From: a virus
IMG/VR virus record: IMGVR_UViG_3300029319_000253
Span: 2,037-32,466 of that record
Strand: one strand, 5' to 3'
Length of the DNA: 30,430 nt
This document shows positions 2,633 through 29,481 of the stretch, in pieces (position 1 is the first letter of the stretch; each line of letters opens with the position of its first letter). The position numbers and the translations under genes are program-made. The notes under the pieces were generated by a model. That model worked only from the letters and a program-made list of their open reading frames with translations. It did no database searches and was not told the DNA's origin.

Positions 2633-3349
2633 ATGCCATTACCAAAGATTGTTACGCCTACTCATGAATTAACTCTACCATCAAATGGAAAGAAAATAAC
2701 ATATAGGCCTTTTCTGGTAAAAGAAGAAAAAATACTTATACTCGCAATAGAAAGTAACTCCCTTAAAGATATTTCTAGAGCTATAAAAGATGTACTTAGA
2801 AACTGTATTCTCACGAAGGGTGTCAAGGTTGATGAACTTCCTACTTTTGATATCGAATACTTATTTTTAAATATTCGTGCGAGATCTATAGGTGAAAGTA
2901 TTGAACTTGTTGTTACTTGTCCTGATGACGGTGAAACTAAAGTAAATGCTACAGTTTACATTGATGAAGTTCAAGTAAAAACAAATGAAAAACATAACGC
3001 TGACATCAAGATAGATGACACATATACTATGAGAATGAAATATCCATCATTAGATGAGTTTATTGATGAAAACTTTAATTTCGATGGACAGGCTTCTAAT
3101 AATAGTTTTGAAATTATTGCTTCTTGTATTGATATGGTGTTCAGTGAAGATGAAGCGTGGGAAGCAAAAGACTGTACTAAAAAGGAACTAACTCAATTTG
3201 TGGAACAACTAAACTCCGCTCAGTTCAAAGAGATAGAAAAATTCTTTGATACAATGCCACAGTTATCTCATGATATTGAAGTAGAAAATCCAAAAACAAA
3301 AGTCAAGTCTACAGTCAAATTAGAAGGGTTAGCAAGTTTTTTCGGTTAA
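2633..3349 (+). CDS. 26: Baseplate hub/tail assembly protein gp26
   Basis: 238 aa, slightly longer than T4 gp26 (208). The N terminus LPKIVTPTHELTLPSNGKKI then YRPFLVKEEKILILAIES, and the middle FDIEYLFLNIRARSIGE, are characteristic of the T4-like gp26 family, which is needed to build the central baseplate hub. The C-terminal third (about 150-238) is acidic and resembles tail assembly chaperones of other phages, with helices around FVEQLNSAQFKEIEKFF. The last sense codons are GCA AGT TTT TTC GGT TAA. They contain the slippery heptamer T_TTT_TTC described separately, which would join this protein to the next frame. The next ATG lies two bases past the stop. Confidence 0.88.
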   Translation: MPLPKIVTPTHELTLPSNGKKITYRPFLVKEEKILILAIESNSLKDISRAIKDVLRNCILTKGVKVDELPTFDIEYLFLNIRARSIGESIELVVTCPDDGETKVNATVYIDEVQVKTNEKHNADIKIDDTYTMRMKYPSLDEFIDENFNFDGQASNNSFEIIASCIDMVFSEDEAWEAKDCTKKELTQFVEQLNSAQFKEIEKFFDTMPQLSHDIEVENPKTKVKSTVKLEGLASFFG

Positions 3350-3377
3350 GTATGGCTCATTTGAGTGCTGAGTCATA
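3337..3377 (+). promoter_or_regulatory. Candidate programmed -1 ribosomal frameshift signal at the gp26/gp51 junction
   Basis: The heptamer T_TTT_TTC occupies 3337-3343 and is aligned to the gp26 frame as X_XXY_YYZ, two codons before its stop. After a 7-nt spacer comes a hairpin whose arms are TATGGCTCA (3351-3359) and TGAGTCATA (3369-3377): nine pairs with one G-U and a 9-nt loop. A -1 slip reads CGG TTA AGT and then the ATG at 3352, so the downstream gene is entered in frame with no stop. The product would be about 300 aa (237 + 3 + 60). Confidence 0.6.
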
Positions 3378-3534
3378 CTATGAATTGACATTCTCATTAA
3401 TGCAGTATCATAAATATAGTTTGACAGAGCTAGAAAACATGATGCCTTGGGAGAGGGACGTTTATGTCAATTTACTAAGGAACTATCTAGAGGCTGAAAA
3501 ACTCAAACAGCAACAACAACAAGGATTAGGATAA
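3352..3534 (+). CDS. 51: Small tail/hub assembly chaperone, gp51-like
   Basis: 60 aa. The sequence has the pattern SYYELTFSLMQYHKYSLTEL, then ENMMPWERDVYVNLLRNYLE and a Gln-rich tail. The PWERDVYV...L motif is typical of the small downstream half (T part) of tail assembly chaperones in long-tailed phages. Cyanophage proteins in this position are annotated gp51, although T4 gp51 (about 249 aa) is much longer, so the name reflects position more than full homology. No ribosome site precedes the ATG, and the ATG lies inside the left arm of the hairpin at 3351-3377. Translation therefore probably depends on frameshifting from, or coupling to, gp26. Its stop overlaps the next start as TAATG. Confidence 0.75.
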   Translation: MAHLSAESYYELTFSLMQYHKYSLTELENMMPWERDVYVNLLRNYLEAEKLKQQQQQGLG

Positions 3535-4820
3535 TGGTAGGGCCGTTAGCACTTTTAGCAGGAGCAGCAAATGCATACCTTATCATTGATGCAGCAATAA
3601 AGCTTACTAATTATTTTAGAAATAGGGGTAAAAATGATACTTTTACCACTCCTGACAATACAGACAAATTAAACAAAGATAATATTGATAAACAGAAAAA
3701 TTTTGCGAATGTAAATAGAGACTTTAGAGGTGGTGCTGCTAATAATATAAGATCTACGAGAGGTGGTGTATTAAGTTTTCTTGGTGATCCTAGTAGAAGA
3801 TTAGATGATGCACCTGATATTGTAGAAGAAAATCAATCAGTTCTTAGAGGTGTAGAGACTCTTGGTGGATTTTTTCCTCCTTTAAATACTCGTGAACCAA
3901 ATATTGACAATCAAAGAATTGTAGAGTCGGGTTTTTTAGGTGTTCGGTTAGAAATAGATAAAATAAACAGAAATATAGATGCTATAGCAAGAGCTATGGC
4001 TGAGAGTGCGTTGTTTGAACAAAAATATAGAAAAGATATGATAGATGCAATGCGTCAGGATTTAGTTGAAAAGGGAAAAGATAGATCAGAAACAAGAAGC
4101 GAACGATCTATATTCAATTTAATCACAAGACCAATAGAACAAGCTCAAGCGAGATTGGGTAAGTTTAAGAATGATTTTGCTAAAGCTATGTTACTTTCTG
4201 CTGGTCTTGAAGCCGCAAATATATTCTTTCCAGATTTTGGAGGGGATAGTGAAGGTGGTGAAGAAGGTGGTGAAGATGAAACTAAAACTCCAAAAGTTGG
4301 CGATTATTACTTTCAAAAACATTCGAGAGGTGGGGATTACTATGTATTACAATCAAATGGGGTATTTAAGAAAGTTGGAAGAGCAAGACCGAGAACTGGA
4401 ACACAGTTCCCAAAATCAGCTTTTGATCCTGTCATAGAAAGTATTAAAAATAATCAAAAAACTAATTTAGATGGAGGAGGTGAAGATAATAAAGGAACCG
4501 ATTTCAGAAGGGAAGATAATAATATTGGTGACTTTAATTTTGATATGGCATCTGAAAATAAAAATAATCTTAATGAAACGTTTAATTCTGAAACTAATTT
4601 AACATTTGATAATAAAATATTCAATTCTGAAACTCCTGTAGCTATGAATGTAGGTGGATTAGAAGGTGGTGAAAAAGTTACTTTTATAGACATGCGTAGG
4701 AAAATCAATGATTCCGCTCAGGGTAGTGATGTTAGTGGTGCTGACAGTGAATTAGTTGATAATATTCCTGAGTTTGATCCAGCAAGATCATCAATATATG
4801 AAGCTTTTGTATCTGCGTAA
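3534..4820 (+). CDS. Tail lumen / tape-measure candidate protein 1 (428 aa)
   Basis: I do not recognise a named family. The N terminus (residues 1-29) is hydrophobic (LALLAGAANAYLIIDAAIKL). Next come a polar, Asn/Asp-rich segment, helical charged regions (about 140-235, with EIDKINRNIDAIARAMAESA), an acidic Gly/Glu stretch near 235-250 (SEGGEEGGEDE) and a low-complexity Asn/Glu-rich C-terminal half. It follows the chaperone pair gp26/gp51 directly, where long-tailed phages usually keep the tape measure, and precedes gp27. T4 has genes 28 and 29 (tape measure) in this neighbourhood. A structural or tape-measure-related role is an inference from position, length and composition. It is linked to both neighbours by TAATG overlaps. 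Confidence 0.65.
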   Translation: MVGPLALLAGAANAYLIIDAAIKLTNYFRNRGKNDTFTTPDNTDKLNKDNIDKQKNFANVNRDFRGGAANNIRSTRGGVLSFLGDPSRRLDDAPDIVEENQSVLRGVETLGGFFPPLNTREPNIDNQRIVESGFLGVRLEIDKINRNIDAIARAMAESALFEQKYRKDMIDAMRQDLVEKGKDRSETRSERSIFNLITRPIEQAQARLGKFKNDFAKAMLLSAGLEAANIFFPDFGGDSEGGEEGGEDETKTPKVGDYYFQKHSRGGDYYVLQSNGVFKKVGRARPRTGTQFPKSAFDPVIESIKNNQKTNLDGGGEDNKGTDFRREDNNIGDFNFDMASENKNNLNETFNSETNLTFDNKIFNSETPVAMNVGGLEGGEKVTFIDMRRKINDSAQGSDVSGADSELVDNIPEFDPARSSIYEAFVSA

Positions 4821-7407: not shown

Positions 7408-7635
7408 ATGAAAACAATAGAAGATCACATAGAAAAAGATAAAAGTCTGATTCAAGACCCTACTATTTCCCCTGCAGCACGTAGACATGCAAAGGAAGAA
7501 CTTCATGAATTAGAAGTTTACGCAGAACATCATAAAGAAGAGATTGAAGCTGGAGATCATCATGACCCTAATGCATTAGAGTTATTCTGTGATATGTATC
7601 CAGATGAACCAGAATGTTTGGTGTATGACGACTAA
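7408..7635 (+). CDS. cp12: CP12-like Calvin cycle inhibitor (auxiliary metabolic gene)
   Basis: 75 aa, acidic. The C terminus ALELFCDMYPDEPECLVYDD carries the hallmark of CP12: two cysteines (C61, C70) eight residues apart, in the form C-D-x2-P-D-x2-E-C-x2-Y-D-D. In cyanobacteria CP12 ties GAPDH and phosphoribulokinase into an inactive complex and so switches off the Calvin cycle. Cyanophages are known to carry CP12 genes, proposed to push host carbon toward the pentose phosphate pathway. Here the N-terminal cysteine pair of host CP12 is absent and the central AWD-VEEL core is reduced to RHAKEELHEL, so GAPDH binding by the C-terminal loop seems more likely retained than the full mechanism. 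The gene sits between gp27 and gp5 with its own strong ribosome site, and its stop overlaps the gp5 start as TAATG. Confidence 0.88.
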   Translation: MKTIEDHIEKDKSLIQDPTISPAARRHAKEELHELEVYAEHHKEEIEAGDHHDPNALELFCDMYPDEPECLVYDD

Positions 7636-25698: not shown

Positions 25699-26358
25699 AT
25701 GCCAGCATTAATTTGTAATTTGCCCTCTTATCATGTGTGGGTGCGAAAGGAATATCTAACAGATCATAAGAGTGGACATGGAGAATTCGTAGAAGGTTAT
25801 TGGGTATCAGCTAAATCTATCCCAGGCCGTGCCTTTTATTTTGAAACATATCTACCAGACTATGCGGCGATGTATGATAAGTTACCCATCAGTGCTTTCG
25901 TATCATCACCTGAGCTACCAGATCCAGATATGACATTACATAATCTGCAGTTCTGGAACTGCATGGACTATGGAGTTGTAGCTGTACAGAAACAATTTGT
26001 AGGTTCAATGCACTATGAGATTATGACCAGAGACTTTGGTAATCAGACAGGGACATATATTTGTACATTAGATAATTATCATCAAGACGTAGACGCAATA
26101 GATTATTCTACAAGTGAACAACCACCAGAACATAAGTCACATAATCTAATTGAACTTGACAATGGGCAGTTTGCGTTGTATCCTAATAATAGAATGAGAA
26201 TATATGATAACAGTTTGACACCAGAGAAACCAAAGAATCCTGATTTTAAGGTATCAACAATTTATTATCAAGTTGAAAATGGCCATGACCGTGATGGTCT
26301 AGGGTCTGAAGAGAACTATTTCTGGAAAACTGCGAAAGAAAGATCTGATGGCGATTGA
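25699..26358 (+). CDS. Conserved-looking phage protein of unknown function, 219 aa
   Basis: A soluble protein rich in aromatic residues (SYHVWVRKEYLTDHKSGHGE, EGYWVSAKSIPGRAFYFETY, LHNLQFWNCMDYGVVAVQKQ, then FGNQTGTYICTLDNYHQ). The compact globular look, with many Tyr, His and Trp, suggests a real folded enzyme or binding protein, but I see no named motif. I have a vague memory of homologues near tail fibre genes in other cyanophages, not a firm family. It has its own late promoter and overlaps the next gene (an oxygenase) by 11 bases, so the two are probably translated together and may work together. Confidence 0.65.
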   Translation: MPALICNLPSYHVWVRKEYLTDHKSGHGEFVEGYWVSAKSIPGRAFYFETYLPDYAAMYDKLPISAFVSSPELPDPDMTLHNLQFWNCMDYGVVAVQKQFVGSMHYEIMTRDFGNQTGTYICTLDNYHQDVDAIDYSTSEQPPEHKSHNLIELDNGQFALYPNNRMRIYDNSLTPEKPKNPDFKVSTIYYQVENGHDRDGLGSEENYFWKTAKERSDGD

Positions 26359-26920
26359 ATCTGATTTAATAAGACGTTATTGTGGAGCATTTACATCAGA
26401 ACAATGCAAGGAAATAATATCTCATATTGATTATTTTGAGAAACATAGTTTGATGTTTTATGATAAATCATCTTTACATCTAACTGATCATGTGACTTTA
26501 AATGTATCTCATGATTGGGATATGGATGAGACGGCTAGTTCTAGAATATCTAATTTAATACTACCTAAATTCAAACCATGTGTTGATGAATATTTACAAG
26601 CTTTTAGTGTGTTGAATGATCATAAGTTTTTATTATATGATCTCAAAGTAAAGAAGATACCTGTGGGTGGTGGTTTTCATTCATGGCATTTTGAGACAGG
26701 TGGAATTGAAAATTGTCATCGAACTTTTGTGGTTCAATTATATGTCAACGATGATTTTGAAGGAGGAGAGACGGAGTTTTTATATCAAAATAGAAGAGAG
26801 GAAGCTGTTGCTGGGGATGTTTTGATATTCCCTGCTGGATTTACACATACCCATAGAGGTAATCCACCAATAGGAGGACATAAGTACCTTATAACTTCTT
26901 GGGGATATATGCAAGGATGA
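26348..26920 (+). CDS. 2-oxoglutarate/Fe(II)-dependent oxygenase, prolyl 4-hydroxylase-like
   Basis: 190 aa. The C-terminal half follows the P4H double-stranded beta-helix pattern: GGGFHSWHFETG (107-118), RTFVVQLYVNDDFEGGETEF (125-144), AGDVLIFPAGFTHTHRGNPP (155-174) and GGHKYLITSW (176-185). Likely iron ligands are H114, E116 (an H-x-E variant of H-x-D) and H169 or H167; K179 is the likely 2-oxoglutarate-binding residue. The N-terminal helices (about 1-75) start SDLIRRYCGAFTSEQCKEII, typical for this class. Substrates of phage members are unknown; proline or lysine hydroxylation of a protein is the family's usual chemistry. It overlaps the preceding gene by 11 bases and the next by ATGA. Confidence 0.85.
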   Translation: MAIESDLIRRYCGAFTSEQCKEIISHIDYFEKHSLMFYDKSSLHLTDHVTLNVSHDWDMDETASSRISNLILPKFKPCVDEYLQAFSVLNDHKFLLYDLKVKKIPVGGGFHSWHFETGGIENCHRTFVVQLYVNDDFEGGETEFLYQNRREEAVAGDVLIFPAGFTHTHRGNPPIGGHKYLITSWGYMQG

Positions 26921-27823: not shown

Positions 27824-28314
27824 ATTATAACAATCTTAACTCTGAGGCCTCTTACATCAAATTAGATGATTTTGCTTTATGCAACATTAAGGTTGATTCT
27901 GGGTGGGTAGGTGTTCATCCAAAAATAGAAAACTACGGATTATATTATTATTTGTATGATGGTTCTCCTAAAGTTGGTATCGCTTTTGAAACTACATTAG
28001 TTAGCCTCACAAAAGGTGCCTTAACATCTACAAAGAGTCATTTAGAAAAATCTTTAATCATAGAAGCTAGTGATAGTTGTGATATCTTGATTTTCAATAC
28101 TATAGATAAAACTCAAGACTGGACAGGATCATTAGTCACAAATACATTTACCTGTGATAATGCAAATAGCTATCTTATTTGTATTGATGGAGCTCCGAAA
28201 GTCAATAGTACAACTATGCAGAAGTTTGACTACTCTAAACTAACATCAGGAAAAGAATATAGTGTTACATTAAATGGTGGCGTATTGGGACTTTTTACTA
28301 AACTCGTCGTATAA
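27820..28314 (+). CDS. Hypothetical protein, 164 aa
   Basis: A beta-rich soluble protein: YIKLDDFALCNIKVDSGWVG, YGLYYYLYDGSPKVGIAFET, SLIIEASDSCDILIFNTIDK, then TFTCDNANSYLICIDGAP. Even spacing of strands and aromatic residues suggests a beta-sandwich, but I recognise no family. Translation is coupled to the upstream 115-aa gene by ATGA. Its last 45 bases overlap the end of the halogenase gene on the opposite strand, so the two genes converge with no intergenic space and no terminator between them. Confidence 0.6.
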   Translation: MNYNNLNSEASYIKLDDFALCNIKVDSGWVGVHPKIENYGLYYYLYDGSPKVGIAFETTLVSLTKGALTSTKSHLEKSLIIEASDSCDILIFNTIDKTQDWTGSLVTNTFTCDNANSYLICIDGAPKVNSTTMQKFDYSKLTSGKEYSVTLNGGVLGLFTKLVV

Positions 28315-29481
28315 TACTGCTACATTAGCCCACATAGAACTAGGATATAAAGATATCCACTTATTGTTATGTTTGATATAATTTTGCCATAAAGTTAGAT
28401 CTGTATTATCTCTCTGATAGTATTTCCAAAAATCAGTATCATTTCTTGGACTGAGTTTATAGAGGTGAAGTAAGAAGTCACTATTGTGTAACCACAATTT
28501 TTTCATAACTTTATTGTATGATTGTGGATTATAATTTCTTTTTATAGTTTTAACTAGGTTTGTGATACTATATTGTATCATGTACAATGCATTTGATTCG
28601 AGTGGTTCTATGAATCCACTGGTAAGACCGAGTGCCACAATATTACCTTGCCAAGGATTGTCTAAGAAACCACTAGTCCATTCTAACAGTCTAGGTTCAC
28701 TCCCTTGATATGGTTCATAGTCTGAATTATATTCTTGGAAGTATTTTAGAGCCTGATCTGTGGTACAAAACTGTGAAGCAAAGACATAACCACAACCACG
28801 TTTCTCTCTTGTATCAATATTGAACTGCCAACCATAGTCAAGTGCTACAGATTCCGTATAGTTGTATGGTTTTTCATTCAACTTAAATGACTGAACCCAA
28901 GCTTTATTAACAATATGGCCTCTACTTGTAAGATCTATAAACTTTCTATCCCGTACAAATTTTCTTTTGAATCCCGTGCAATCAAGATATAGATCATATC
29001 CTTTTGGTAGTTCTTCAATAGTATCGATTATATGAATTGTTCTCTCTGTATATTTTTTGAGAAGAGTTGGTATGAGTTCAGCATCTAAGTGATATGCATA
29101 TCCTTGCCATCCTTTATCACTATAAAATTTATCATTTAAACTTTCCTTTGGTAAATTATATTTTTGGTAATCATCTAGCCAATCATCAAGACCGTTTGCA
29201 TCATACCAGAATGTAAATTTAAATCTATCATCACCACCATTCCACGATACCTTTTCATTTCCATTCTTAATTAATCCATTACACTCTGAAACCCAAGTAT
29301 CATCATCAATACCTAATTCGTTGAAAAAATTTCTGAGTTGTGGCAATGATGATTCACCCACGCCAATGATTGGTATCGTAGGACTTTCAATCAAAGTGAT
29401 TGTTGATTCTGGTATATGTTTTTCAATGTGTGCAGCTGCCATCCAACCAGTAGTTCCGCCACCAACAATACAAATTTTCAT
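28270..29481 (-). CDS. Flavin-dependent (tryptophan-type) halogenase
   Basis: 403 aa. The N terminus MKICIVGGGTTGWMAAAHIE carries the GxGxxG flavin-binding motif in the G-G-G-T-x-G-W form typical of these halogenases, and GVGESSLPQL (40-49) follows. By alignment from memory with PrnA, K72 (in CNGLIKNG) matches the catalytic lysine K79, and E295 in EPLES (292-296) matches E346. The signature W-x-W-x-I-P is changed to W218-Q-F-N-I-D, followed by GCGYVFASQF. Reduced flavin and oxygen make hypohalous acid, which the lysine directs to the substrate. The protein is about 100 residues shorter than tryptophan halogenases, mainly at the C terminus. A cyanophage halogenase (VirX1, phage Syn10) with broad, iodide-preferring activity has been described, and this is probably of that group. 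Its start overlaps the upstream oxygenase gene by ATGA. Confidence 0.88.
   Translation of the reverse strand: MKICIVGGGTTGWMAAAHIEKHIPESTITLIESPTIPIIGVGESSLPQLRNFFNELGIDDDTWVSECNGLIKNGNEKVSWNGGDDRFKFTFWYDANGLDDWLDDYQKYNLPKESLNDKFYSDKGWQGYAYHLDAELIPTLLKKYTERTIHIIDTIEELPKGYDLYLDCTGFKRKFVRDRKFIDLTSRGHIVNKAWVQSFKLNEKPYNYTESVALDYGWQFNIDTREKRGCGYVFASQFCTTDQALKYFQEYNSDYEPYQGSEPRLLEWTSGFLDNPWQGNIVALGLTSGFIEPLESNALYMIQYSITNLVKTIKRNYNPQSYNKVMKKLWLHNSDFLLHLYKLSPRNDTDFWKYYQRDNTDLTLWQNYIKHNNKWISLYPSSMWANVAVLYDEFSKKSQYATI

Follow-up and report, generated by a model that had tools for sequence, protein, structure and literature searches.

We describe here the junction of two genes within the window, the 30,430-nucleotide stretch of DNA from a T4-like cyanophage that was analysed. 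An open reading frame on the plus strand at 2633–3349 encodes the 238-residue short form of gp26, a putative N-type tail assembly chaperone (PF12322, phrog_150), and its match to the Pfam T4_baseplate family PF12322, the family of T4 gp26 and gp51, lies above the curated cut-off (E 8e-74; 248 bits, cut-off 24.5). The gene ends ...GAA GGG TTA GCA AGT TTT TTC GGT TAA, such that the slippery heptamer T_TTT_TTC occupies 3337–3343 (plus strand) in the gp26 frame, exactly where the initial annotation had put it, with a single sense codon, GGT, between its last codon and the zero-frame stop TAA at 3347–3349. A ribosome slipping back one base would read CGG TTA AGT ATG ... TAA at 3343–3534, the predicted C-terminal tail of a fusion, passing through R-L-S-M into the conventional 60-residue ‘gp51’ open reading frame (3352–3534, plus strand) and meeting no stop until 3534, as the initial annotation had also read it; the predicted gp26-gp51 fusion is 300 residues long. 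Against phrog_634, the baseplate hub assembly catalyst, the 60-residue product aligns (E 7e-26) with positions 60–117 of 121 only. Its ATG at 3352 sits two bases past the gp26 stop (TAA GT ATG) and, in the window and many relatives, is buried in a hairpin, and we found no Shine-Dalgarno sequence close to it in the window, both points having been made for the window from the first reading of the DNA. The hairpin has an 11 bp stem (plus strand; 5’ arm 3349–3359, 3’ arm 3369–3379) that starts 5 nt after the heptamer, and a Shine-Dalgarno-like GAAGGG is situated at 3323–3328 (plus strand), with 8 nt between it and the heptamer and 23 nt between it and the ATG, too far to serve the latter. We regard the 60-residue ‘gp51’ frame as probably the tail of a fusion, and not an independent gene. 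The next open reading frame (3534–4820, plus strand, 428 residues), a candidate tape measure gene, overlaps the -1 tail. The tail and baseplate gene block also contains a CP12-domain gene of auxiliary metabolic type (7408–7635; PF02672, E 8e-13; phrog_627, E 1e-39), and by eye the window encodes a putative 2-oxoglutarate/Fe(II) oxygenase-like protein (26348–26920, plus strand) and a putative tryptophan-halogenase-like FAD protein (28270–29481, minus strand; MKICIVGGGTTGWMAA...).

As a control for chance, eight slippery heptamer types were counted in the 9,770 codons of the window’s genes, giving 49 occurrences, two of them T_TTT_TTC; the one at the end of gp26 is the sole heptamer of the 49 that lies within three codons of a stop. 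Loss of the heptamer in close relatives, which would speak against a role for it, was looked for in the 80 IMG/VR loci closest to the window’s gp26, and the gene ends with xxT TTT TTC NNN stop in every one. A wider junction sample, composed of these 80 loci, further scans and annotated phages, comprises 194 sequences with 177 distinct junctions and is biased to sequences related to the window and to P-HM2. In 173 of the 177, as in the window, an X_XXY_YYZ heptamer of the form T6N stands in the zero frame, separated from the stop by no more than two codons (TTTTTTC in 147, TTTTTTA in 20, and TTTTTTT in 6). The four junctions without T6N are those of the T-even phage HX01, two Vibrio phages classed as Ackermannviridae, and the IME-SM1 record. 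The two Vibrio phages (L083, 3700–3780; L088, 3690–3760) keep the -1 tail and have CTT_TTT_C with five T; here ribosomes may slip in the P site, on UUU. The Stenotrophomonas phage IME-SM1 (L085, 3720–3740) also has five T, which fuses gp26 to another frame, and we rejected it as a natural in-frame fusion or +1 case; because its close relative BUCT608 (L197, 2718–2735) has six, a homopolymer sequencing error in the public IME-SM1 record is likelier.

Codon choice was analysed in 102 representatives (clusters at 80% amino acid identity) that fall into 20 clusters at 50% amino acid identity. The codon preceding the slippery pair is AGT, TCT, GAT, AAT, GCT, GGT, ACT, or CAT, ending in T in all 102, and the slippery codons themselves are TTT TTC in 80, TTT TTA in 17 and TTT TTT in 5. 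Elsewhere in the same genes just six of 100 Phe-Phe pairs are written TTT TTC, and TTC TTT is the most frequent form. Selection at the heptamer acts on nucleotides rather than on amino acids. The proposal that an ordinary Phe-Phe codon pair happens to precede a fortuitously open frame can draw on the slippery heptamers that arise by chance elsewhere in the window, and on the modest statistics of the hairpin when a single sequence is considered, but it does not account for conservation over 20 such clusters together with codon-level constraint; conservation rules chance out, and we give it a negligible probability.

From the heptamer onwards the -1 frame is open for 57–78 codons in all 172 cases in which it closes, and in the same junctions the +1 frame closes after a median of seven codons. 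Loss of the in-frame -1 link was likewise sought as a refutation, and the link is open throughout the junction set, the overlapping frame coding for the conserved phrog_634 domain. One alternative is termination-reinitiation, in which a ribosome that has just ended gp26 would melt the hairpin and begin anew at the ATG at 3352 to give a separate 60-residue gp51, and the placement of that ATG just past the stop and within the hairpin, in the window and in many relatives, speaks for it. However, 55 of the 173 junctions contain no ATG in the -1 frame before the tail domain, and 47 contain no ATG, GTG or TTG, with the tail still conserved; in these 47 the tail is therefore expressible only by frameshifting from gp26. 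We accordingly rejected independent expression of the 60-residue frame as a general explanation, since many relatives have no start codon for it. Restarting also leaves unexplained the invariant phase of the heptamer, the NNT rule for the preceding codon, the position of the Shine-Dalgarno-like element close to the heptamer but far from the ATG, and the homology to T4 gp51 of the linker upstream of the ATG, and we consider it quite improbable. In P-HM2 (L091, 3789–3881) gp51 is annotated as 30 residues long, yet the -1 frame can be read onwards from the terminal gp26 heptamer without a stop, and the true N-terminus of this protein is probably gp26.

The sequences flanking the heptamer on both sides are under selection, although the upstream Shine-Dalgarno-like signal is only partly separable from the peptide. 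Among the representatives, predicted pairing with the anti-Shine-Dalgarno 3’ end of 16S rRNA peaks for 8-mers ending 7 nt before the heptamer, with a mean of -7.1 kcal/mol against a background elsewhere of about 0 to -2.5 kcal/mol. Synonymous shuffles average -5.5 kcal/mol and a median of 27% of them reach the same strength, so that the signal reflects in part the conserved L-E-G peptide and in part codon choice. Downstream, a 9 bp hairpin with arms at 3351–3359 and 3369–3377 had been described initially, following a 7-nt spacer. These arms do pair, with one G-U; in the prediction, however, the stem gains two further base pairs (3349–3359 with 3369–3379), and the spacer is therefore 5 nt and not 7. 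Taken alone, the window hairpin is mildly unusual (z -1.75; 12 of 200 shuffles are as stable), and the support for it is comparative and does not come from single-sequence stability. The 46 nt downstream fold at a mean of -9.3 kcal/mol in the representatives versus -4.4 kcal/mol in synonymous shuffles that keep the -1 frame protein, and in 56% of representatives no more than 5% of shuffles are as stable; the first paired base follows 4–5 unpaired nucleotides in 38 of the 53 strongly folded representatives. The stems themselves differ across relatives, and include GTATGGCTCA/TGAGTCATAC (as in the window), GCCCTC/GAGGGC, GGCTCTC/GAGAGCC, and GGTTC ATAT GAACC. In an ungapped alignment of 73 junctions, the window helix is the best register in paired cells, and its covariation is 0.188 versus 0.133 in shuffles, with none of 500 shuffles as high. 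Among the 37 sequences with a GTATG arm, one pair is U-A in 22, A-U in eight and G-C in two, and is broken in five, with the 3’-side change altering the encoded residue; the compensatory changes that had been suggested as a check on the hairpin are thus present. In a substantial minority of lineages the hairpin is weak or missing, so it is not essential everywhere.

These flanking elements also bear on the possibility of transcriptional slippage, in which RNA polymerase would slip on the T run and alter the number of U residues, the fusion then being made by ordinary translation. In its favor, the run is homopolymeric and six to eight long in all variants, but known bacterial sites are longer, at about 9 A or T (PMC5009743). 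Here the run is mostly exactly six T in codon phase, and an upstream Shine-Dalgarno-like element and a downstream hairpin at ribosome spacing point to the ribosome. We find slippage by the polymerase very improbable.

We strongly favor programmed -1 ribosomal frameshifting as the source of a long gp26-gp51 form. Most ribosomes would end gp26 at the TAA at 3347, and a minority, held by the Shine-Dalgarno-like contact about 8 nt upstream and by the hairpin 5 nt downstream, would slip by -1 on T_TTT_TTC and read CGG TTA AGT ATG... to give the 300-residue fusion; both the slip and its rate are things that we infer. The two forms, short and long, would then work on the tape measure or hub complex as tail assembly chaperones of the lambda G/GT type. 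The initial annotation had cast gp26 as G and gp51 as the T extension, with a minor product of ~300 residues, and sequence comparison supports this assignment, the product being a predicted one of that length. The E. coli dnaX signal consists of an upstream Shine-Dalgarno-like element, a heptamer, and a hairpin about 5 nt downstream, and the window shares this three-part layout, although in dnaX the heptamer is A_AAA_AAG and the frameshift product is the shorter one, whereas here it is the longer.

At the level of sequence the locus has a short form and a predicted frameshift-extended long form of the lambda G/GT type, the -1 shift lying at the end of the gene and directly ahead of the candidate tape measure gene; in lambda the G to GT ratio is about 30:1 (PMC5009743). 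The next open reading frame is plausibly the tape measure gene, encoding 412–864 residues in relatives and giving weak tape-measure phrog hits in S-CRM01; homology of its product to T4 gp29 was sought and not found. A confident structure model of gp26 (pLDDT 87) is mixed alpha/beta. Among solved structures the closest hit that makes biological sense, at ranks 5 and 10, is the HK97 tail assembly chaperone 2OB9, although the match is not significant (E 0.55, probability 0.41) and gp26 differs in being larger and mixed alpha/beta; searching solved structures by sequence with gp26 gave no convincing match.

The relationship to T4 itself is informative about the history of the locus. T4 genes 26 and 51 are divergent, on opposite strands, and therefore no frameshift can join them; gene 26 of the T-even phage HX01 has no heptamer, and we rejected frameshifting in T4 itself. 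The initial remark that T4 is not known to frameshift here was right, and T4 gp51 already carries a gp26-like domain (PF12322, residues 1–201, E 4e-52) and, after it, the phrog_634 tail (E 1e-23). T4 gp26 and gp51 are detectably paralogous (E 2e-6), and the window gp26 shows homology to both, in the case of gp51 over its N-terminal 200 residues. In architecture the predicted fusion corresponds to the whole of T4 gp51: a profile built from predicted cyanophage fusions is colinear with T4 gp51 residues 16–246 and unbroken at the junction, the alignment covering linker residues encoded upstream of the ATG at 3352, and the profile also matches gp51 of 44RR, Ac42, and KM3. Thus one frameshifted cyanophage locus would make the two products that T4 makes from two divergent genes, a duplication. 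Vladimirov and colleagues are said to have stated in their 2022 abstract that frameshifting is conserved in several T4-like groups, and that T4 itself uses genes 26 and 51.

Within the Straboviridae, the heptamer and -1 tail are also present in Aswh_1, Citrobacter phage Ci1, and a Schizotequatrovirus, and the same heptamer is found in phages of Stenotrophomonas, Xanthomonas, Vibrio (Schizotequatrovirus), Citrobacter, Aeromonas, Rhizobium, Agrobacterium, and Nitratidesulfovibrio, accompanied by the -1 tail in those of Stenotrophomonas, Xanthomonas, Nitratidesulfovibrio, Rhizobium, and Agrobacterium; gp26 of SRB7757, used as a query, found no relatives in viral contigs. In Vibrio phage TCU-VP03-AIR1 (L198, 1453–2301) a gp26 homologue carries the annotation deoxynucleotide monophosphate kinase, which is probably wrong. 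In a tree of the domain, T-even 26 and 51 form one supported group (98/93) apart from all frameshift-type sequences, and the simplest reading would seem to be that in the T-even line one duplication replaced an ancestral frameshift. We infer this history, and do not take it as read from the tree, because the tree is midpoint-rooted and has long branches. In Klebsiella phage KM3 (L201, 2001–3295) the long (51) and short (26) chaperone genes lie one after the other on the same strand, which may be a vestige of the duplication. We lean towards a view of the site as a three-part module with a near-fixed heptamer and a hairpin that would have been redesigned several times (at least four stem designs, mostly 4–5 nt from the heptamer), with T-even 26 and 51 arising from one duplication that replaced the ancestral frameshift.

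The short and long tail assembly chaperones of T4-like phages were identified by Vladimirov, Gautam and Davidson in 2022 (Virology 566:9-15), as cited in the PRFect paper (PMC10885494) and in a 2025 Pakpunavirus paper (PMC12846349), and according to these citing sources polyT slippery sites occur in T4-like short-form genes, with a separate-gene solution in some. Judging from that work as it is cited, the frameshift idea has thus been published before for T4-like phages, and what is added here is the detail of the three-part RNA signal and stronger comparative evidence for a further member locus; no cyanophage ribosome-profiling paper was found in the literature searched. Both T4 proteins, gp26 and gp51, appear in the literature as chaperones of hub assembly; assembly requires gp51, yet the virion does not contain it (PMC3004832). 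Sullivan et al. (2010) noted that cyanophage and marine-vibriophage gp51 is short of roughly the first 200 residues, and that gp51 seemed absent from Aeh1 (PMC3037559). The cyanophage and vibriophage proteins would look truncated because gp26 supplies the missing part through the predicted frameshift. The cyanophage records examined give gp26 and gp51 as two genes, sometimes with a wrong start for gp51. Programmed frameshifting at this locus would thus tie the hub chaperones of T4 to the general G/GT scheme of long-tailed phages.
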